Assembly (NCBI RefSeq): GCF_900231165.1
Contig: NZ_LT960614.1
Span: 1,548,550 to 1,612,549 of the forward strand
Direction of reading: 5' to 3'
Source of the DNA: Hartmannibacter diazotrophicus
GTDB lineage: Bacteria; Pseudomonadota; Alphaproteobacteria; Rhizobiales; Pleomorphomonadaceae
DNA: 64,000 nt
The translations under genes were made by a program, and so were the position numbers. Shown here piece by piece: positions 24,040 through 34,082 of the stretch (position 1 is the stretch's first letter; each line of letters begins with the position of its first letter). The notes beneath the pieces were generated by a model. That model was not told the DNA's origin, did not search any database, and saw nothing but the letters and a program-made list of their open reading frames with translations.

Positions 24040-26685
24040 TCAAGCCAATGAACGCTCGGCGATATCCCGCACGTCACGCGAGAGATTGGGCTTGGCGGCG
24101 ATGCGCTTAAGGGCCGCTTCGGCCAGCCCCTGGCGCACCGGTTCCCAGTTTCTCCAGGAGCGGAAGCTGACCAGGATGCGGGCGGCGACCTGCGGATTGA
24201 TGTCGTCGAGCCGCATGACCTTGTCGGCGACGAAGTCGAAGCCGGCGCCGTCGGCGCGCGCGAACTGCGGCAGGTTGGCTGTCGCGAAGGTGCCGATCAG
24301 CGAGCGCACCCGGTTCGGGTTGCGGATCGAGAAGGCCGGATGCTCGGTGAGGCGCTTGACCTCGTCCAGCGTCCGCGCGCCGGGGCGCGCCGCCTGAACC
24401 GCCAGCCACTTGTCGATGACGAGCGGAACGGACTTGTAGCCCTCGTAGAAGTCGCCGAGAGCCTGTTCGGCCTCCGAGGCACCGTTCTGGACGAGGCTGA
24501 CCAGCGCGGCCAGCCGGTCGGTCATGTTGGTCGCGGCGCCGAATTTCTCCATGATGCGGGCGTGGACGTCGGCATTGCCAGAGGCGGCGCGCATGTCCTG
24601 TGCCGCGTTGGCGAGCGCCCGTCGTCCGGCACTCTCGGCATCCGGCGAGTAGGCGCCTTCGTCGTGATAGAAGCGGGCGAGGTGATCGAGCGTCGGCCCG
24701 AGCTTGGAACCGATGGTCCGTCGCGCATGGCGCAGGGCGCCGGCGATGGCATCCGGATCGACGTTGCTGCCGATTTCCCGGGCGATGTCGGCTTCCTGCG
24801 GCAGCGCGAGGACGAGGGCCCGGAAGGCCGGATCGAGCGCATCGTCGGTGATGATCTCGGCAAGGGCGGCGAGATAATCGCCGTCGATCGTCGCCGAACT
24901 TCCGGCGCGAAGCGCCTCCGTCGACGCGGTGAGGCAATACATCGCCACCGTCGACGCCGACTGCCAGCGGTTGAAGGGGTCGCTGTCGTGCCGCATCAGG
25001 AACAGAATGTCCTTGATCGGCATGTTGAGGATCGGCCGCACCGGCGCCGAGAAATTCCTCAGGATCGACGGGATCGGCCGCGAGGCGACGCCGGTGAAGA
25101 CAATTTCCTGCTCGGCCTTGTCGACCACGATGACGTCGCCATTGACCTCGGCGCCCTTCGCCGTCTCGTAGAGCATGTCCTCGCCGTTCGGGCCGACGAG
25201 ACCGAAGCGCACCGGCAGCACCATCGGCTTCTTTTCCGACTGCTCGGGCGTCGGGCCGAGGCTCTGGCTGAGCGTCAGGCGGTAGGTGCGGTTGTCGCCG
25301 TCATAATCGTCGCGGATGTCGAGCTGCGGCGTGCCGGCCTGGCTGTACCAGAGCATGAATTGCGAGAGGTCACGGCCGGAGGCTTCGGCAAAGCAGGCGA
25401 CGAACTGCTCGATGGTCGCCGCATCGCCGTCGTGCCGGTCGAAATAGAGATCCATGCCGGCCTTGAAGGCCTCGTCGCCGATGAGGACCTTCAGCGCGCG
25501 GATCACCTCGGCGCCCTTCTCATACACCGTCGCGGTGTAGAAGTTGCTGATCTCCATGTATTTTTCAGGGCGAACCGGATGGGCGAGGGGGCCGGCATCC
25601 TCCGGGAACTGGTGGCTGCGCAGGAGGCGAACGTCGGAGATGCGCTTCACCGGGCGCGAACGCATGTCGGAGGTGAACTCCTGGTCGCGGAAGACGGTCA
25701 GGCCCTCCTTGAGGCAGAGCTGGAACCAGTCGCGGCAGGTGATGCGATTGCCCGTCCAGTTGTGGAAATACTCGTGCGCGATGACGGCCTCGATGCCGCC
25801 ATAGTCCTGGTCAGTGGCGACATCCGGGTTGGCGAGCACGTATTTGTCGTTGAAGACGTTGAGGCCCTTGTTCTCCATCGCCCCCATGTTGAAGTCGGAA
25901 ACGGCGACAATGTTGAAGACGTCGAGGTCGTATTCGCGCCCGAAGGCGGTCTCGTCCCAGCGCATGGAGCGCTTCAGGGCATCCATGGCATAGACGGCGC
26001 GCTCCTCGTTGCCGTGCTCGACATAGACGCCGAGATCGACATGCCGGCCCGACATGGTCGTGAAGCTGTCCTTGACCACGCCGAGGTCGCCGGCAACCAG
26101 GGCGAAGAGGTAGGAGGGCTTCGGATGCGGATCGCTCCAGACCGCGAAATGCCGGTCGGTATCCGGGACGAGGCCGCTCGTCGTCGGGTTGCCGTTGGCC
26201 AGCAGCACGGGCGCCGCCGCGACGGGGGCTTCGATCCGCACGTCATAGACGGACAGAACGTCCGGCCGGTCCAGGAAATAGGTGATGCGGCGGAAGCCTT
26301 CCGCCTCGCACTGGGTGCACCAGACGCCGCTGGACCTGTAGAGCCCCATCAGCTTGGTGTTGGAGGCCGGGTCGAGCTTCGTGACGATCGTCAGCGTGAA
26401 GGGAGCGGCGGGCGGGGTCTTGACCGTCAACCCCTGCGGCGTCGCCGAATAGGCCTCATCGCCGAGCGAGACGCTGTCGAGCGCGATCGAGACGAGATCG
26501 AGTTCGTCGCCATCGAGAACGAGCGGCGTGCCGGCCACCGTCGTCTCGCGCTTTCGCACCGACAGGGTTGCCGTCACCAGCGTCTCTGTCTCATGCAGCT
26601 GAAAATCGAGATGCACCCGGCCGATCGCATAGTCGCTGGGCCGGTAGTCCTTGAGGAGGATCGCGGCGGTCTCGTCGGTGCGCAT
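24040..26685 (-). CDS. pepN: Aminopeptidase N (M1 family)
   Basis: An 881-residue cytosolic metallopeptidase, the usual size of gram-negative PepN (about 870-890). The exopeptidase motif GAMEN is at residues 268-272. The zinc site HEYFH is at 304-308 with the third ligand Glu327 (HEXXH-x18-E) in KEGLT. RRITYFLDRPDVL is also diagnostic. It removes N-terminal amino acids from peptides. The ATG start MRTDETAAILLKDYRPSDY matches the family N-terminus. It lies alone, reading away from trpL, and its stop is 154 bp from the downstream kinase start. Confidence 0.95.
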   Translation of the reverse strand: MRTDETAAILLKDYRPSDYAIGRVHLDFQLHETETLVTATLSVRKRETTVAGTPLVLDGDELDLVSIALDSVSLGDEAYSATPQGLTVKTPPAAPFTLTIVTKLDPASNTKLMGLYRSSGVWCTQCEAEGFRRITYFLDRPDVLSVYDVRIEAPVAAAPVLLANGNPTTSGLVPDTDRHFAVWSDPHPKPSYLFALVAGDLGVVKDSFTTMSGRHVDLGVYVEHGNEERAVYAMDALKRSMRWDETAFGREYDLDVFNIVAVSDFNMGAMENKGLNVFNDKYVLANPDVATDQDYGGIEAVIAHEYFHNWTGNRITCRDWFQLCLKEGLTVFRDQEFTSDMRSRPVKRISDVRLLRSHQFPEDAGPLAHPVRPEKYMEISNFYTATVYEKGAEVIRALKVLIGDEAFKAGMDLYFDRHDGDAATIEQFVACFAEASGRDLSQFMLWYSQAGTPQLDIRDDYDGDNRTYRLTLSQSLGPTPEQSEKKPMVLPVRFGLVGPNGEDMLYETAKGAEVNGDVIVVDKAEQEIVFTGVASRPIPSILRNFSAPVRPILNMPIKDILFLMRHDSDPFNRWQSASTVAMYCLTASTEALRAGSSATIDGDYLAALAEIITDDALDPAFRALVLALPQEADIAREIGSNVDPDAIAGALRHARRTIGSKLGPTLDHLARFYHDEGAYSPDAESAGRRALANAAQDMRAASGNADVHARIMEKFGAATNMTDRLAALVSLVQNGASEAEQALGDFYEGYKSVPLVIDKWLAVQAARPGARTLDEVKRLTEHPAFSIRNPNRVRSLIGTFATANLPQFARADGAGFDFVADKVMRLDDINPQVAARILVSFRSWRNWEPVRQGLAEAALKRIAAKPNLSRDVRDIAERSLA

Positions 26686-27086
26686 GAAGCCATCTTTCGT
26701 CGGTTGGTGATCTCATTCCCCGGGGCCGAACCGGAAAACGGTCCGCCGAAAAGGGAAGCATCACACTCAAATCAGTCGTTTCTCTGGTCTAGCGGCGATG
26801 CCGGATGCTGGCAACAGCGCCCCGCGCAAGCCGGTTACCGTCAGGAGAATCCGCCCGTCCGGAATCAATTTCTGCACAAAGCCCGGTAACCCTTTGCAGG
26901 GACTCACCGAAGCGGCCTGAATCGGAATCTGAACTTGAGCCCTTCGGAAATGAGTTGAACGGGTTTGTTGAATCAGAATGTCAGAAGTGTGCCGGCCGGC
27001 TTTGCGCTGTCCTTCCGGACCCGGACAGGCGGCGGCTCCATGGCTCTCGGCGGTCGGATGCCGCGGCGGGCCGCGCATCCCGAGGA
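26686..27086. other. Gap between pepN and the trp leader
   Basis: About 400 bp between divergent genes. It should hold the pepN promoter. I see no convincing gene; short open frames on both strands have no ribosome-binding site or family character. Confidence 0.5.
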
Positions 27087-27115
27087 TTGTCAACGCTGGC
27101 GGCTTCGATTATGGT
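27087..27115 (+). promoter_or_regulatory. Promoter of the trp leader
   Basis: TTGTCA, a 17-nt spacer and TATGGT form a sigma-70 promoter. The -10 ends 7 nt before the A of the leader ATG, so transcription would begin at the start codon itself. A leaderless trpL is established for Sinorhizobium meliloti. Confidence 0.7.
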
Positions 27116-27122
27116 CCGGCGC

Positions 27123-27170
27123 ATGAACACGACGTCGGCTCGGAATGTGTGGTGGTGGCGGTCCGCTTGA
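27123..27170 (+). CDS. trpL: trp leader peptide (three consecutive Trp codons)
   Basis: A 15-codon frame, MNTTSARNVWWWRSA, with TGG TGG TGG at 27150-27158. It has no Shine-Dalgarno sequence, and the predicted transcription start coincides with its ATG, so it is probably translated as a leaderless message. Ribosome stalling at the Trp codons when charged tRNA-Trp is scarce should favour the antiterminator. In S. meliloti the 14-residue homologue (peTrpL) also acts in trans in antibiotic response. It lies 150 nt before trpE(G). Confidence 0.85.
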   Translation: MNTTSARNVWWWRSA

Positions 27171-27243
27171 GCGGCCGAACACGCACGTCTTGAGTGCGAG
27201 GTTTGACGAAGGCCGCTCCCGACCACGGAGCCGGCCTTTTTTG
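27123..27243 (+). ncRNA. rnTrpL: rnTrpL-type attenuator RNA
   Basis: Three alternative pairings are visible. Region 1 (GGTCCGC, 27160-27166) pairs with GCGGCC (27171-27176). GAGCGGCC (27169-27176) pairs perfectly with GGCCGCTC (27211-27218) as antiterminator. AAGGCCGCTCC (27209-27219) pairs with GGAGCCGGCCTT (27227-27238, one bulge) and is followed by six T, forming the terminator. When Trp is plentiful the terminated about 120-nt RNA is released. In S. meliloti this RNA, rnTrpL, regulates other mRNAs in trans. Confidence 0.85.
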
Positions 27244-27320
27244 TTGTCTGAAGGGCGTCTCCGGGGTCGGAGCAGGGCAGAACACAAGAAGCCGGCCAAG
27301 GCCCGGCCCGGTGGAGTAAC

Positions 27321-29534
27321 GTGACGATGATGACGCGCGAGGAAAGCTTTACGACCGCCGGCGGGATCTCCGCCGTGCGGCGTCCGCACGAGGTGCCCTA
27401 CAAGGACGCCGCGCTGGAGTATGTCGACATGCTCGACACCCGGCGCGGCGTGGTGCTCTCCTCCAACTACGAATATCCGGGGCGCTACACCCGCTCCGAC
27501 ATGGCCTTCGTCAACCCGCCGGTCGCGCTGACCGCGCGGGGGCGCCATGTCGTCATCGAGGTGCTGAATGCGCGCGGTCACGTTCTCCTGCCGGCGATAG
27601 CGGCCGCGCTCGAAGGCGCCGAGGAGCTTGCATCCTTCTCGGCCGGCAAGGACCGTATCGAACTGACGGTGAAGCTGCCCGGGGGGCGGTTCCCGGAAGA
27701 GGAGCGCTCCCGCCAGCCGTCCGTCTTCTCGGTGATCCGCCGCATCATCGCGGCCTTCAAATGCGACGAGGATTCCGTCCTCGGCCTCTACGGCGCATTC
27801 GGCTACGATCTCGCCTTCCAGTTCGAGCCGATTGAGTTCCGCCTGCCGCGTCCGGACGACCAGCGCGATCTGGTGCTTTACCTGCCCGACGAGATCCTGA
27901 TCGTCGACCACTACCGCGCCGCGGCGACCGTCTATGCCTACGACTTCACGGTGAATGGCACGTCGACCGAGGGCCTTCCGCGCGACGGCAAGGAGTCGCC
28001 CTTTTCGCAGGCGACCCGGATCCCGGGGCGGGGCGACCATGAGCCCGGCGAATATGCCGCCTCGGTTGCCAAGGCGGTCGAGTACTTCAAGCGCGGCGAT
28101 CTCTTCGAGGTCGTGCCCGGCCAGACCTTCTACGAGCGCCCGTCGGCGCCGCCGTCGGCCATTTCCCGCAAGCTGCAGCAGATCAATCCCTCGCCCTACG
28201 GCTTCATGTTCAACCTCGGCGAAAACGAGTTTCTCGTCGGTGCCTCGCCGGAAATGTTCGTGCGCGTCACCAATGGCCGCCGGGTCGAGACCTGCCCGAT
28301 TTCCGGCACCATCAAGCGCGGCCGCAACGCCATCGAGGACGAGCAGCAGATCCTGACGCTGCTCAATTCCAACAAGGACCGGGCGGAGCTGACCATGTGC
28401 TCCGACGTCGACCGCAACGACAAGAGCCGCATCTGCGAGCCGGGGTCGGTGAAGGTCCTCGGCCGCCGCCAGATCGAGATGTATTCGCGGTTGATCCACA
28501 CCGTCGACCATATCGAGGGCCGGCTGCGCGAAGGGCTCGACGGCCTCGACGCTTTCCTCTCCCACGCCTGGGCGGTGACGGTGACCGGCGCGCCGAAGCG
28601 CTGGGCGATGGAATTCATCGAGCAGCACGAAAAGTCCGCCCGCGCCTGGTACGGCGGCGCCGTCGGCGCTCTGCTCTTCAACGGCGATCTCAACACCGGT
28701 CTGACGCTACGTACCGTCCGCCTCAAGGACGGAATCGCCGAGGTGCGCGCCGGCGCGACGCTGCTCTACGATTCCGATCCTATGGCCGAGGAACAGGAGA
28801 CCGAGCTCAAGGCCTCCGCCATGATCACGGCGATCCGCGAGGCGGGAACCGTCAAGGATGCGCCGCTGACCAACGGGCCGGCGACGATCGGGGAGGGGCT
28901 CAAGATCCTCCTCGTCGACCACGAGGACAGCTTCGTCCATACTCTGGCGAACTACTTTCGCCAGACCGGCGCCCATGTCGTGACGGAGCGCGCCGCCAAG
29001 GGCGTTGGCTTCGACGTTGCCGAGCTCGACCGCCTGAAGCCCGATCTTCTGGTCATGTCGCCCGGCCCCGGCAATCCGAAGGACTTCCTGTGTACCCGCA
29101 CGATCGCGGCGGCGCGCGAGCGGGGCATTCCGATCTTCGGCGTCTGCCTCGGCCTGCAGGCGATCGCCGAATCCTTCGGTGCGACCCTTGGCCAGCTCGA
29201 CATCCCGGTCCATGGCAAGCCGTCGCCGGTCGCGGTCGAAACGACCGGCCTTTTCGCTGGTTTGCCGGAGGAGATCATCATCGGCCGCTATCATTCGCTG
29301 CATGCCAGGCCGGAAACGCTTCCCGAGGAAATCCGCGTCACCGGCCGCACCGAGGACGGTATCGTGATGGCGATCGAACATGCGAGCGAGCCCATCGCGG
29401 CGGTTCAGTTTCACCCGGAATCGATCATGTCGCTCGGCGACGATGCGGGTCATGTGATCGTGGAAAATGCCGTGCGTCATCTGGTGCTGGCTCGCCGTAA
29501 CCGGGCGGACGAAGGCGCAAAGCGGGTGTCGTAG
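27321..29534 (+). CDS. trpE(G): Anthranilate synthase, fused TrpE-TrpG
   Basis: A 737-residue fusion that makes anthranilate from chorismate and glutamine, the first step of tryptophan synthesis. The TrpE part spans residues 1 to about 520 ([10 protein letters not shown] feedback-site region, [21 protein letters not shown]). The glutamine amidotransferase part follows, with nucleophile Cys609 in FGVCLGLQ and His698/Glu700 in FHPES. The fusion is typical of Hyphomicrobiales. GGAG lies 4 nt before GTG 27321 and 10 nt before ATG 27327, and the latter may be the real start. It is controlled by the trpL attenuator and followed by a hairpin. Confidence 0.95.
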
Positions 29535-29567
29535 CCGATCCCTGGAGACTTGGTTTTTGGCTGGAAC

Positions 29568-29594
29568 GGGCCGCGATCATCACGATCGCGGCCC
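29568..29594 (+). terminator. Hairpin after trpE(G)
   Basis: An 11-bp perfect stem (GGGCCGCGATC and its complement) around loop ATCAC, 34 nt after the stop. Only a weak T-stretch (GATCTTGTG) follows, so termination is likely but not certain. Confidence 0.6.
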
Positions 29595-29626
29595 GATCTT
29601 GTGATTGGGCTTTGATACATGGCGAT

Positions 29627-29651
29627 GGAATAAACAGGCGCGTGCGGTGTT
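29627..29651 (+). promoter_or_regulatory. Putative ECF-sigma promoter before the YceI gene
   Basis: GGAATA-N11-GCGGTGTT. The same two blocks with the same 11-nt spacer occur before the next gene at 30303-30327, while the spacer sequences differ. GGAAT-type -35 elements are typical of ECF sigma factors, and an ECF gene lies 1.1 kb downstream in the same cluster. It begins 84 nt before the YceI start codon. Confidence 0.65.
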
Positions 29652-29710
29652 CTGGGACCTGACTACGGAACCCTGCCTGCAAGGGCGAACACGCAAAAGG
29701 AACGATCACC

Positions 29711-30280
29711 ATGCGCATCCAATATTTCGCTGCAAGCCTTCTGGTGGCCGCGGCCGTCCTGCCAGCCAATGCCGAAACGCTTGACGTCGCCCCGGGCCGC
29801 TATGCCATCGACTCCTCCTCGCAGATCCATTTTTCCGTCGGGCAAATCGGCGGCGGAGGCATCGAGGGCACTTTCCAGCGCTTTCACGGCGTTTTCGATC
29901 TGCATCCGAAGGATATCGGTAAGTCGACGGTCGATTTCGTCCTCAATCCGGGAAGTGTCACGGCGGGAACGCCGGTCATCGAGAATTTCCTCAAGTCCGG
30001 TGTCGTCTTCGACGTGGCGGACTACCCCGACATCACCTTTCGGTCGACCCGCGTGACACAGACCGGCGATACGACGGCCAAAATCGAAGGCACTCTGACG
30101 GCGAAGGGGCACACCTACCCCCAGACCTTCGATGCGACGCTTGTCAGCGCCAAGGGCTCGACGCTGGCTTTCCACGTCGTGGGCCAAATCCGGCGCGGCT
30201 ATTACGACATGGAAATCGGCGCCCCGATCTATTCGACGGTCGTCGATCTCGACATGGTGATGAACGGTCGCCGGCAATAG
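29711..30280 (+). CDS. YceI-family periplasmic protein
   Basis: A 189-residue secreted protein with signal peptide MRIQYFAASLLVAAAVLPANAE. The YceI lipocalin-like beta-barrel is clear: YAIDSSSQIHFSVGQIGG, FQRFHGVFDLHPKDI, FDVADYPDITFRSTRV and GTLTAKGHTYPQTFDATL. Family members bind isoprenoid quinones or other amphiphiles in the periplasm and are often linked to cytochrome b561, as here. AAAGGAACGATCACC precedes the ATG. It has its own copy of the putative ECF promoter. Confidence 0.9.
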   Translation: MRIQYFAASLLVAAAVLPANAETLDVAPGRYAIDSSSQIHFSVGQIGGGGIEGTFQRFHGVFDLHPKDIGKSTVDFVLNPGSVTAGTPVIENFLKSGVVFDVADYPDITFRSTRVTQTGDTTAKIEGTLTAKGHTYPQTFDATLVSAKGSTLAFHVVGQIRRGYYDMEIGAPIYSTVVDLDMVMNGRRQ

Positions 30281-30302
30281 CCGAAAATAATATCCGGGCC
30301 CG

Positions 30303-30327
30303 GGAATAGAATTGTCCGGGCGGTGTT
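30303..30327 (+). promoter_or_regulatory. Putative ECF-sigma promoter before the Yx(FWY)xxD gene
   Basis: The second copy of GGAATA-N11-GCGGTGTT, with a spacer unrelated to the first. It begins 78 nt before the start codon, nearly the same distance as the first copy. It would also drive the sigma and anti-sigma genes, giving autoregulation. Confidence 0.65.
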
Positions 30328-30380
30328 TTCCTTCATGACGGCCGGCAGTCGAGCCGTCCAGGAAAACAAGGAACGTCACG

Positions 30381-30776
30381 ATGCTTACCCGAATGCTGGC
30401 CGTGCTCGCCGCCGCGACCGTCCTGTCCACCATGCCGGCGTCCGCCGAAGACTATGCCGCTGGGGCCGTCAAGACCATGATGACGGACAAGGGCGACGTC
30501 CTCGTCGGCGAAGGCGGCATGACGCTTTACGTCTTCGACAAGGACGCCAAGGGCCAGTCCAACTGCTATGGCGAATGCGCCGTTCTGTGGCCGCCGTTCA
30601 TTGCCGTCAAGGGTGCGAGCGCTGACGGCGAATTCACGCTCGTTTCCCGCAAGGACGGCATGAAGCAGTGGGCCTATGACGGCAAGCCTCTGTATTTTTG
30701 GCAGAAGGACAAGAAGCCCGGCGATACGACTGGCGATGGCGTCAAGGGCGTGTGGCACGTCGTGAAGGACAACTGA
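30381..30776 (+). CDS. Secreted protein with Yx(FWY)xxD motifs (COG4315 type)
   Basis: A 131-residue protein with signal peptide MLTRMLAVLAAATVLSTMPASAE. It carries two copies of the family motif: YVFDKD in LYVFDKDAKGQSNCYGECA and YFWQKD in PLYFWQKDKKPGD. It also has the conserved CYGECAVLWPP, where the cysteine pair may form a disulfide. The family is secreted, often beside ECF sigma factors, and of unknown function. AAGGAACGTCACG precedes the ATG. The sigma gene starts 5 nt after its stop. Confidence 0.88.
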   Translation: MLTRMLAVLAAATVLSTMPASAEDYAAGAVKTMMTDKGDVLVGEGGMTLYVFDKDAKGQSNCYGECAVLWPPFIAVKGASADGEFTLVSRKDGMKQWAYDGKPLYFWQKDKKPGDTTGDGVKGVWHVVKDN

Positions 30777-30781
30777 CGATC

Positions 30782-31288
30782 ATGTCGGACTATCTGGACG
30801 AGGTCATGGCCAGCGTACCCGCCCTGAGGCGCTATGCGCGCGCGCTGACGCATGACGCCGAGCGCGCCGATGATCTCGTCCAGGACTGTCTGGAGCGGGC
30901 CGTGCGCCGCCAGAGCTTCTGGCGGCCGACCGGCCCGCTCAAGGCCTGGCTCTTCAAGGTTCTGGTGAACATCTATCGCAACGACTTGCGCCGCGAGCGG
31001 CGCCGTCCGGCGGCCGAGCCGATCGAGACGATGACGGTCGAGCCGCATGTGCCCGAAAGCCAGACCGGTCAACTCGCTCTCGCCGACATGGCAAGAGCGA
31101 TGCAACAGCTCGCGCCGGAGCAACGCGAGGCGCTGCTGCTTGTCGTTCTGGAGGGGCTGAGCTATGCCGAGGCGGCGGAGGTGCTCGATATTCCGATCGG
31201 CACGCTCATGTCGCGGATCGGCCGCGCGCGGGCGGCGCTTCGCGCCTCTTCGGAGGGAACGGTGCGCAGGTTGAGGTCGGTGAAATGA
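30782..31288 (+). CDS. ECF (extracytoplasmic function) sigma factor
   Basis: A 168-residue sigma factor with only regions 2 and 4. Region 2: LRRYARALTHDAERADDLVQDCLERAV and KAWLFKVLVNIYRNDLRRERR. Region 4: LAPEQREALLLVVLEGLSYAEAAEVLDIPIGTLMSRIGRAR. The start MSDYLDEV is chosen; the longer frame overlaps the preceding gene. Its stop overlaps the anti-sigma ATG (ATGA), the normal arrangement. It probably transcribes from the two GGAATA-N11-GCGGTGTT sites upstream. The inducing signal is unknown; redox or envelope stress is a guess from the target genes. Confidence 0.93.
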   Translation: MSDYLDEVMASVPALRRYARALTHDAERADDLVQDCLERAVRRQSFWRPTGPLKAWLFKVLVNIYRNDLRRERRRPAAEPIETMTVEPHVPESQTGQLALADMARAMQQLAPEQREALLLVVLEGLSYAEAAEVLDIPIGTLMSRIGRARAALRASSEGTVRRLRSVK

Positions 31289-32058
31289 GCGGCGAGAAGA
31301 ATTCCGTCAACGAGACCGACCTGATGGCCTATGTCGACGGCCAGCTCGATGACGAGCGGCGGCGCATCGTCGAGGAGCATCTGACCCATAATGCCGAAGA
31401 CGCCGCGGCCGTGGCTCGCTGGCGCCGGCAGAACGAGGCGATTGCCGCGCTTTATGCGCCGGCAGCAGGCGAAGTCGTTCCCGAACGCCTTGATGTCCGA
31501 AGAATGTCCGCCGAGCGTCACTGGTCGGCGCCGCGGTTGGCAGGATTTGCTGCGGCTGCCGCCGTCGTCTTTGCTCTTGGAAGCCTCTCCGGCTGGTTCG
31601 TCCGAGGCGACCTTGGGCCGGTTTCCGGCGGTCAGGCCGGGCTCGTCGCGGAAGCGGTTGCCGCGCACAGCCTCTATTCGGGCGAGGTGCTGCATCCGGT
31701 CGAGGTCAAGGCGACGCAGGAGCAGCATCTGTCGACCTGGCTCTCCAAGCGTCTCGACCGGCCGTTGAACATCCCAGATCTCAGGACGCAGGGTTTCAGC
31801 CTCGTCGGGGGACGCCTGTTGCCGGCCGGCAGCAAGCCCGCCGCCCAGTTCATGTACGAGGACGAAAAGGGCCGGCGCATCACACTCTATATCGTGCCGG
31901 CCAGCAACGAGCGCGAGACGGCCTTCCACTATGAGAAGTTCGATGAGTTGGAAGCCTTCTTCTGGAAGGACATCCACATCGACTGCGCGATGGTGGGCAA
32001 CCTGCCGCGTGAGGAATTGCACCAGATATCGCTCGACGCCTATGCGCAATTGAGCTGA
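31285..32058 (+). CDS. Membrane-bound anti-sigma factor
   Basis: A 257-residue protein. The N-terminal part (DLMAYVDGQLDDERRRIVEEHL) is the usual anti-sigma helix bundle, here without the HxxxCxxC zinc motif. A single membrane span (FAAAAAVVFALGSLSGWFV, about residues 88-106) leads to a 150-residue periplasmic domain (GFSLVGGRLLPAGSKPAAQFMYEDEKGRRITLYI) resembling the sensor domain of ChrR/RsiW-like transmembrane anti-sigma factors. It overlaps the sigma gene by 4 nt and should hold it at the membrane until a periplasmic signal arrives. Confidence 0.9.
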   Translation: MSGEKNSVNETDLMAYVDGQLDDERRRIVEEHLTHNAEDAAAVARWRRQNEAIAALYAPAAGEVVPERLDVRRMSAERHWSAPRLAGFAAAAAVVFALGSLSGWFVRGDLGPVSGGQAGLVAEAVAAHSLYSGEVLHPVEVKATQEQHLSTWLSKRLDRPLNIPDLRTQGFSLVGGRLLPAGSKPAAQFMYEDEKGRRITLYIVPASNERETAFHYEKFDELEAFFWKDIHIDCAMVGNLPREELHQISLDAYAQLS

Positions 32059-32102
32059 GCGGGGAAGCCAGCGGCGACCCGCTCGCAGCCAGGAGAAAAT
32101 CC

Positions 32103-32666
32103 ATGATCCGCAACGGTCAGGCCACCTATGGCTGGGGCAGCATTCTGCTTCATTGGTCGATCGCGCTACTGTTTCTGCTCCAGCTGGCGCTTGGCGTCGT
32201 CATGACCCGTGTCGGCAACGATCCGGGCCTCCAGTTCAACCTCTACCAGTGGCACAAGTCCTTCGGATTCCTCATCCTGCTGCTGGCCGCCGTCCGCCTG
32301 CTGTGGGTTCTCGCCAACCCGGCGCCCCGGCCGCTCGGCACCGAGGACTGGCGCGAAATCCTGCTCGCCCGGTTGGTCAAGATCGCGTTGCTGCTCCTGA
32401 CGCTGGCCATCCCGCTGCTTGGCTGGGCCGTCGTATCGGCATCGCCGCTGCGGATCCCGTCCTATCCCTTCGATCTCGTCGTGATCCCGAATTTGCCGGT
32501 CACCCCATCCGACGCGCTGGAGCATTTTCTGGCCCGGTGGCACGCCCTGCTCGCCTATGGCACGACGGCGATCGTCGTGCTCCATGTTGCGGCGGCCCTG
32601 CGGCACCACTTCCTGCTGAGAGACGGTACGCTGGTTCGCATGCTCGTCAGCCGGATGGGACGGTAG
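32103..32666 (+). CDS. Cytochrome b561 family protein
   Basis: A 187-residue inner-membrane dihaem cytochrome with four spans. Candidate haem ligands are histidines in ILLHWSIALLF, LYQWHKSFGFL, LARWHALLAYG and VVLHVAAALRHHF. The family moves electrons between quinones and periplasmic partners and often sits beside YceI genes. AGGAGAAAATCC precedes the ATG, 44 nt after the anti-sigma gene, so it is likely cotranscribed. Its stop is 27 nt from the convergent argE. Confidence 0.92.
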   Translation: MIRNGQATYGWGSILLHWSIALLFLLQLALGVVMTRVGNDPGLQFNLYQWHKSFGFLILLLAAVRLLWVLANPAPRPLGTEDWREILLARLVKIALLLLTLAIPLLGWAVVSASPLRIPSYPFDLVVIPNLPVTPSDALEHFLARWHALLAYGTTAIVVLHVAAALRHHFLLRDGTLVRMLVSRMGR

Positions 32667-32693
32667 GCGTTTCGTTTCCGGTCCGCTTTCGGC

Positions 32694-33857
32694 TCAGCCG
32701 TCGCAGGCCTTTTCCGCCAGCCGCTCGATGAAGGCCGCGCATTTTTCCAGCTCGGAGATCGCAATGAACTCGTCGGGCTTGTGCGCCTCGCCAATTGAGC
32801 CGGGCCCGACGACAACGGTGGGAATGCCCGCTTCATCGAAAAGCCCCGCCTCGGTGCCGTAGGCGACCTTGGCGTGATCGTTACGCCCGGCGAGCCGCTT
32901 GGCCAGCCGCGTCACCTCCGCATCCGGCTCGGTATCGAGGCCGGGAAAGGCCGAGGTGATCTCGAAGTCGATGCCAGCTTCTGGATGGCGCATGCGCATC
33001 TCGGGAACCAGCACCTCGCGGGCGTAGACCTCGATTTCCTGCAGCAGCGCGTCGGCATCCTGGCGCGGCAGGGCGCGGATCTCGAAGGTGAACTGGCACT
33101 CGTCGGGCACAATATTCAGCACCGTGCCGCCGCTGATCGTGCCGACATGGGTCGTCGTCACCGGCACGTCGAAGAGCGCGTCGGATGGCCCGCGCGCCAA
33201 CTGGGCGCCAACCTCGCCGATCTTGCCGATCAGCCTTGCCGCATATTCGACCGCGTTGACGCCATGCGGTGCGAGCGAGGAGTGGCAGGAAAGACCGGTG
33301 ACCGTGACCCGCAGCGAGCGTTTGGCCTTGTGGGCCGTCACCACCTGCATTTCGGTCGGTTCGCCGACGAAACAGGCGAGCGGCAGGAGAGGGCGGGACT
33401 TCAGCGCGTCGATCAGACCGCGCACGCCGATGCAGCCGACCTCCTCGTCATAGGAAAAGGCGAGGTGGATCGGCGTCTTGAGCGGCTTGCTCTTCAGCAT
33501 CGGAACGGCGGCGAGGCAGACGGCGAGAAAGCCCTTCATGTCGCAGGCGCCGCGCCCATAGAGCTTGCCGCTTTCTTCCCTCAGCACAAACGGATCGCTG
33601 GACCACGGCTGGCCGTCGACCGGCACGACATCCGTATGGCCGGAGAGGATGTAGCCGGGAGCATCCGCCGGGCCGATTGTCGCGAAGAGGTTGGCCTTTT
33701 CTCCGGTCTCGTCATAGACGCGCTCGGAGTCAATCCCGTGCCGGCTAAGGTAGTCCTCGACCCAGGCGATGAGGTCGAGGTTGGAGTTTCGGCTTGTCGT
33801 GTCGAAGCCAACGAGCGTTTCCAGGATGGCCTTGGTGACGGCCGTGTCGATAGTCAT
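32694..33857 (-). CDS. argE: Acetylornithine deacetylase (ArgE, M20 family)
   Basis: A 387-residue cytosolic metallohydrolase that releases ornithine from N-acetylornithine. SGHTDVVPVDGQPW contains the first zinc His and catalytic Asp, GRGACDMKGFLA the bridging Asp, and SYDEEVGCIG the catalytic Glu/zinc Glu pair. The dimerisation domain has TTTHVGTISGGTVLNIVPDECQF. The start MTIDTAVT matches the rhizobial family; an upstream in-frame extension of 147 codons has no support. M20 relatives (succinyl-diaminopimelate desuccinylase) are less similar in these motifs. Confidence 0.85.
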   Translation of the reverse strand: MTIDTAVTKAILETLVGFDTTSRNSNLDLIAWVEDYLSRHGIDSERVYDETGEKANLFATIGPADAPGYILSGHTDVVPVDGQPWSSDPFVLREESGKLYGRGACDMKGFLAVCLAAVPMLKSKPLKTPIHLAFSYDEEVGCIGVRGLIDALKSRPLLPLACFVGEPTEMQVVTAHKAKRSLRVTVTGLSCHSSLAPHGVNAVEYAARLIGKIGEVGAQLARGPSDALFDVPVTTTHVGTISGGTVLNIVPDECQFTFEIRALPRQDADALLQEIEVYAREVLVPEMRMRHPEAGIDFEITSAFPGLDTEPDAEVTRLAKRLAGRNDHAKVAYGTEAGLFDEAGIPTVVVGPGSIGEAHKPDEFIAISELEKCAAFIERLAEKACDG

Positions 33858-34082
33858 TCCAAATCCGGATGCGTGAGGGGGAGGGCCTGACGGCGATTGG
33901 CGCATTGGGAGTCGACCCTTTGATAGCCGACTTTGCGGTGCGTCGTGAAGAACATCTCGGCTCAGCCATGGTCCATGCGGCACGCTGCTGCGTCTCTGTT
34001 CCCTCCAAAAAGACGAAAATGCCGAAATTATCGGCAGGCCGCCATTATGGGCGAATTTTTCGCTGGAATCATTCCAAGCCAC

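Follow-up and report, generated by a model that had tools for sequence, protein, structure and literature searches.

Two copies of one promoter element, one before a yceI gene and one before an operon that carries its own ECF sigma factor, probably mark an ECF regulon in Hartmannibacter diazotrophicus that comprises both promoters, amplifies itself and is of the RpoE1/EcfR1 (ECF26-like) type. Sequence comparisons within the window, by which we mean the whole 64,000-nucleotide stretch analysed, and across relatives establish that the motif is paired, conserved and linked to the sigma gene, and how the operon is laid out (Table 1). In the mechanism we propose, the sigma factor would be held at rest by a membrane anti-sigma factor, and would be freed once the periplasmic domain of the anti-sigma senses a signal in the envelope, for which lipid or oxidative damage is the probable candidate. 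Sigma-bound RNA polymerase would then read GGAATA-N14-GTGTT at P1 (yceI) and at P2 (secreted repeat, sigma, anti-sigma, b561). The output would be more sigma, more of its inhibitor, and a YceI/b561 pair handling quinone- or lipid-borne radicals, and a secreted Cys-pair protein with no assigned role would be produced alongside. A sequence-only reading of this DNA had proposed an autoregulated module in which a periplasmic signal releases sigma; that interpretation is largely supported, and we infer the signal and the dependence on sigma.

Table 1. Promoter elements and genes of the two transcription units (positions in the window)
Feature	Positions	Strand	Basis
-35 element GGAATA of P1, before yceI	29627..29632	+	motif search and conservation
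-10 element GTGTT of P1	29647..29651	+	motif search and conservation
YceI-family periplasmic lipocalin-like protein, 189 aa	29711..30280	+	PF04264, E 1.5e-24; PDB sequence match 1y0g (YceI)
-35 element GGAATA of P2, before secreted-repeat/sigma operon	30303..30308	+	motif search and conservation
-10 element GTGTT of P2	30323..30327	+	motif search and conservation
Secreted Lipoprotein_15 repeat protein, 131 aa	30381..30776	+	PF03640; 59.0% over 100 aa to SMc01418
ECF sigma factor, 167 aa	30785..31288	+	Sigma70_r2 and r4_2 domains
Membrane anti-sigma, 257 aa	31285..32058	+	zf-HC2 match; 36.8% to EcfR1; model, fold match
Cytochrome b561, 187 aa, last gene of operon	32103..32666	+	PF01292, E 1e-28; sole PDB sequence match 5oc0

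Promoter pair and operon layout

The exact string GGAATA-N11-GCGGTGTT was found in the window at 29627-29651 and 30303-30327, starting 84 nt before the ATG at 29711 and 78 nt before the ATG at 30381, and the spacers of the two copies share no resemblance. The sequence-only reading had given these particulars, including the identical 11-nt spacing, and all are exact. The genome search that it had suggested, GGAATA-N10..12-GCGGTGTT, returned 2 matches in the 5.45-Mb genome, both of them P1 and P2, and 0 with the reversed control. When up to 3 mismatches were allowed, the window held 3 matches against a chance mean of 3.1, which is the chance level, so only the exact copies at P1 and P2 are notable. 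Its view of the motif's extent called for trimming: the GCG that opens the second half is less well conserved in relatives, leaving GGAATA-N14-GTGTT as the core.

Looser patterns indicated no additional targets with a diverged -10 element in this genome. GGAATA-N13..15-STGTY had 8 genome-wide matches versus 7 in the control, and the 6 that are not P1 or P2 all lie inside open frames of at least 292 codons. For GGAATA-N12..16-SKKYNTT the figures were 23 versus 6; 20 of the 21 other sites fall inside open frames of at least 197 codons, and the remaining one (C1:118181), which is outside such frames, has a dissimilar -10. These loose-pattern searches of the 5.45-Mb genome thus yielded no convincing third target, though diverged ones may exist.

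Domain profiles uphold the earlier gene calls of YceI, repeat protein, ECF sigma, anti-sigma and b561. In the second unit, 8 nt separate the repeat and sigma genes, sigma and anti-sigma overlap by 4 nt, and 44 nt separate anti-sigma and b561; these spacings fit the proposal that the second transcript runs through sigma, anti-sigma and b561, and are as expected if the secreted repeat, sigma, anti-sigma and b561 genes share one transcript.

Conservation of the element among relatives

Relatives were chosen by similarity of the anti-sigma or the sigma, never by the motif, with 30 of 60 genomes entering by the anti-sigma route (H. diazotrophicus itself counted) and 80 loci, retained out of 551 candidates, by the sigma route. 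We scored the 160 nt preceding the secreted-repeat gene for the 11-letter core GGAATA-N14-GTGTT, with 77 usable regions, 73 of them distinct. The element had no mismatch in 16 of the 73, one in 33 and two or more in 24; at most one mismatch was therefore seen in 49/73, and control stretches from the same loci contained 0/6,961 with no mismatch and 5/6,961 with one. Permitting spacers of 13-15 raised the share with at most one mismatch to 53/73 relatives versus 9/6,961 controls. Before yceI, which could be scored in 15 relatives, one region had no mismatch, 12 had one and two had two (at most one in 13/15). The conservation in relatives with the same cluster that the sequence-only reading had proposed to look for is thus present before both genes, in counts that are not independent because the relatives share ancestry. 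No recognisable element at spacings 13-15 was found in 14/73 relatives, 11 of them Rhodobacteraceae/Paracoccaceae records. Promoter strings of same-family genomes are identical to strings in named Pleomorphomonas records, which makes the Pleomorphomonas family the probable one of the host.

How the element varies points to a reader common to both sites. Its commonest -35 change is GGAATA to GGATTA (31 and 23, respectively, of 59 called), and P1 and P2 carry an identical -35 hexamer in 12 of the 15 relatives having both genes, several of the 12 being close kin (the exceptions are L041, L044 and L071). In Aureimonas AU20 both promoters read GGATGA, and the -10 elements of two sister relatives differ in step, both being GTGTC in L063 and both GTGTT in L058. 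Joint changes of this sort are the trace that a single reader of the two sites would leave. Genes of the same families away from the cluster do not carry the element. H. diazotrophicus has two further YceI genes, and at the start positions tried for them the best score was 4 mismatches; four Lipoprotein_15 genes that stand alone, without the sigma, have 2 to 4.

The pattern GGAWTA-N11..14-GGTGTT had 3, 2, 1 and 7 matches in four named genomes, both cluster promoters being included in three of them; in the fourth, Nitratireductor ZSWI3, neither cluster promoter was matched because the -10 elements there differ. We rejected particular sigma residues as the cause of the GGAATA/GGATTA switch, as most of the strongest signals fall outside region 4 and relatedness confounds them; the sigma's residue 150 is no more than a weak lead.

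Relation to the S. meliloti RpoE1 unit

In S. meliloti, the SMc01418 promoter has a mapped start site, and overexpression of RpoE1 raises its own operon together with SMc01022, a YceJ-family cytochrome b-like gene (PMC6180224). With the promoter and autoregulation of this homologue shown experimentally, the kind of module is already known, and the one described here is a well-conserved further example whose sensor architecture is of interest. The unit of S. meliloti Ak57, located in a plasmid collection, has the published SMc01418 promoter unchanged, with GGAATA starting 85 nt before the gene of the secreted repeat protein (SMc01418), after which come RpoE1 and EcfR1. The window shares this order of secreted repeat, ECF sigma and anti-sigma, and likewise has a GGAATA-type promoter before the repeat gene. 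P1 and P2 match the ECF26 cross-species consensus of -35 GGAATA and -10 GT, and the putative lipoprotein gene upstream of the window sigma, as in the SMc01418 arrangement, occupies a position widely conserved in the ECF26 group (PMC6180224). The window anti-sigma also has the ECF26 layout of an N-terminal anti-sigma domain, one membrane helix and a periplasmic C-terminal domain. By analogy, autoregulation and release by a periplasmic signal would be expected in H. diazotrophicus.

The two units are not identical. Unlike that of the window, the Ak57 unit is neither preceded by yceI nor followed by b561, and its promoter has a spacer of 15 and GTGTC where the window has 14 and GTGTT; the S. meliloti promoter string had 0 matches in 394 genomes of the family of genome G060. 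Identity to the S. meliloti unit is 59.0% for the repeat protein (100 aa), 36.8% for the anti-sigma and 38.0% for the sigma, and the last figure compares with 38.8% to RpoE2 (ECF15), so that pairwise identity does not separate RpoE1 from RpoE2. In a tree of 117 sigmas, the window sigma joins sequences from Nitratireductor and from its own family (98/98) and with them belongs to a 79-row clade (95/85) that includes no S. meliloti sigma; S. meliloti RpoE1, 3, 4 and 6 group with RpoE2 (93/84) on long branches, which places the S. meliloti and window sigmas in different tree groups. We call the window sigma ECF26-like by its promoter, gene order and anti-sigma, a label that does not come from its sequence group.

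The genome encodes a paralogue of the sigma (46%) at locus L004 (C1:3430534-3431777), and the anti-sigma there is related to that of the window (31%). The element is absent from the 160 nt before that sigma, and cross-talk between this pair and the window module is possible.

Anti-sigma factor and its predicted sensor domain

The predicted model of the anti-sigma (pLDDT 89.8, pTM 0.59) has an N-terminal domain resembling that of ChrR (Z 7.7, 57 residues) and a membrane helix at about residues 82-109, modelled as a long helix. Residues 149-257 of the model align with RseB 218-315 (Z 9.8, rmsd 2.7, 95 residues), and the periplasmic domain fits RseB/MucB C-terminal domains with rmsd 2.5-2.7 (Foldseek probability 1.00, E 5.9e-4). 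The Pfam profile MucB_RseB_C (PF17188) is matched by 5 of 50 aligned anti-sigma members, best E 1.9e-4, and the window's own anti-sigma has no PF17188 match at E 0.01. The periplasmic part, about 149-257, is thus predicted from its modelled fold to be an RseB/MucB C-terminal-like domain; a published comparison likened EcfR C-terminal domains to RsiW instead (PMC6180224). As in RpoE-RseA-RseB and AlgU-MucA-MucB, a membrane anti-sigma would hold an ECF sigma and an RseB/MucB C-terminal-like periplasmic domain would take part, but unlike in those systems the domain is predicted inside the anti-sigma chain itself. No counterpart of the large RseB domain was recognised in the model, although one may be present.

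Binding of MucA to MucB is antagonised by lipids (PMC7400510), and lipid damage as a direct signal on the periplasmic domain is plausible, a view of the signal that draws on the predicted fold and on distant relatives. Carried to its end, this view would make the anti-sigma a one-chain RseA-RseB on which a lipid-derived envelope signal acts directly, freeing a dedicated sigma whose two-promoter regulon makes a YceI/b561 lipid-radical defence and a secreted Cys-pair protein. We offer that full scheme tentatively and regard it as rather doubtful; if true, the EcfR1-type anti-sigmas of many Alphaproteobacteria would be direct lipid-damage sensors. A cysteine as universal sensor of these anti-sigmas was considered and rejected: position C234 is Cys in only 57/107 rows and Tyr in 41.

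YceI, cytochrome b561 and the secreted protein

The genes at the two ends of the cluster travel together. Among 61 relatives with enough flank, a b561 gene lies within 2.5 kb downstream on the same strand in 13/14 with yceI versus 0/47 without it; in relative L057 a b561 is present farther away on the opposite strand. Structure 5oc0, to which the window cytochrome is matched, we take to be the superoxide oxidase CybB. Burkholderia cenocepacia has a YceI lipocalin, BcnA, with a b561 partner, LcoA, and the two keep lipid peroxidation of the membrane in check (PMC9113575); the window likewise pairs a YceI-family lipocalin with a cytochrome b561. The Burkholderia genes form an lcoA-bcnA-bcnB operon, in the description of which no ECF sigma is named (PMC9113575), whereas yceI and b561 stand at opposite ends of the sigma/anti-sigma cluster in the window. 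We infer the "redox" nature of the module by analogy, the experimental tie of YceI/b561 pairs to lipid-peroxide defence being that in Burkholderia, and the pair may serve lipid- or quinone-radical defence here.

Elsewhere in the H. diazotrophicus genome (L149, C1:4558466-4558915 and its frame), a single 449-codon frame contains b561 at residues 33-210 and YceI at 288-437, by its domain matches a natural fusion of both module partners. In the secreted Lipoprotein_15 protein, C62 and C66 are invariant (Cys in 77/77 rows). Its confident model (pLDDT 89.4) resembles no PDB entry to a notable degree (best Foldseek E 1.2; one chain with Z 2.3), which does not in itself show a new fold.

Alternative explanations

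A few mismatched copies of the element are expected by chance, but the exact pair is unique in 5.45 Mb and conserved in relatives; that P1 and P2 are a chance pair is hardly conceivable, and we reject it on the genome count and on that conservation. More serious is the idea that the two promoters are served by a general stress sigma of the EcfG/RpoE2 type (ECF15) and not by the operon's own sigma. The EcfG consensus, GGAAC-N16/17-CGTT, is only a few letters away from P1 and P2. One sigma of this genome (L005) is a homologue of RpoE2, with which it groups at 100/100 in the tree, and the motif of RpoE6 (ECF26) is similar to the ECF15 motif (PMC6180224). We nevertheless judge this improbable: the element adjoins this sigma gene in relatives and was absent upstream of the lone target-gene homologues examined, the -35 elements of both promoters change together, and the strict motif is confined to one locus, unlike a general stress regulon.

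With the operon's own sigma as the preferred reader, the nature of the signal can still be argued. Compounds that generate sulfite elicit a response from RpoE1 and RpoE4 in S. meliloti (PMC3511301), and the repeat protein and anti-sigma of the window are homologous to SMc01418 and EcfR1, so the module might answer sulfite or another sulfur stress in place of lipid or oxidative damage, a change that would leave promoter and autoregulation as they are. Sulfite is also the only signal named for such sigmas in the open PMC literature that we found, in S. meliloti and Starkeya novella. The operon has no sulfite oxidase gene, however, and its targets are YceI and b561; we hold a sulfur signal to be unlikely, though worth keeping in view. 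A hypochlorous acid signal by way of Brucella BcrS was set aside, as that system is ECF16 with a TGTAAC promoter and a different operon (PMC8315932).

The interest of the module lies in its small regulon, for which promoter code, sensor and output can all be predicted and which occurs in several alphaproteobacterial families. No description of a sigma-linked yceI/secreted-repeat/b561 cluster was found in our searches of open PMC papers. With one branch tied to YceI and b561 and to a predicted sensor domain like that of RseB, the question of the signal can be put directly to the test.

Upstream neighbourhood

At 29568-29594, in the interval from trpE(G) to P1, the sequence read by eye shows an inverted repeat of 11 bp with a loop of 5 nt and a weak T tail, probably the terminator of trpE(G). 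A search of 29400-32900 found 3 terminator-like sites versus 3.0 expected by chance, two overlapping within the anti-sigma gene and one before yceI at 29584-29598, a shorter stem of the same repeat. Rfam gave no match at gathering score in 26000-34000, the region that also holds, at 27123-27170 (+), a 15-codon frame, MNTTSARNVWWWRSA, with three consecutive Trp codons. A GC-rich stretch and a T run come after this frame, ahead of trpE(G) at 27321, and the whole looks like a trp leader peptide and attenuator.
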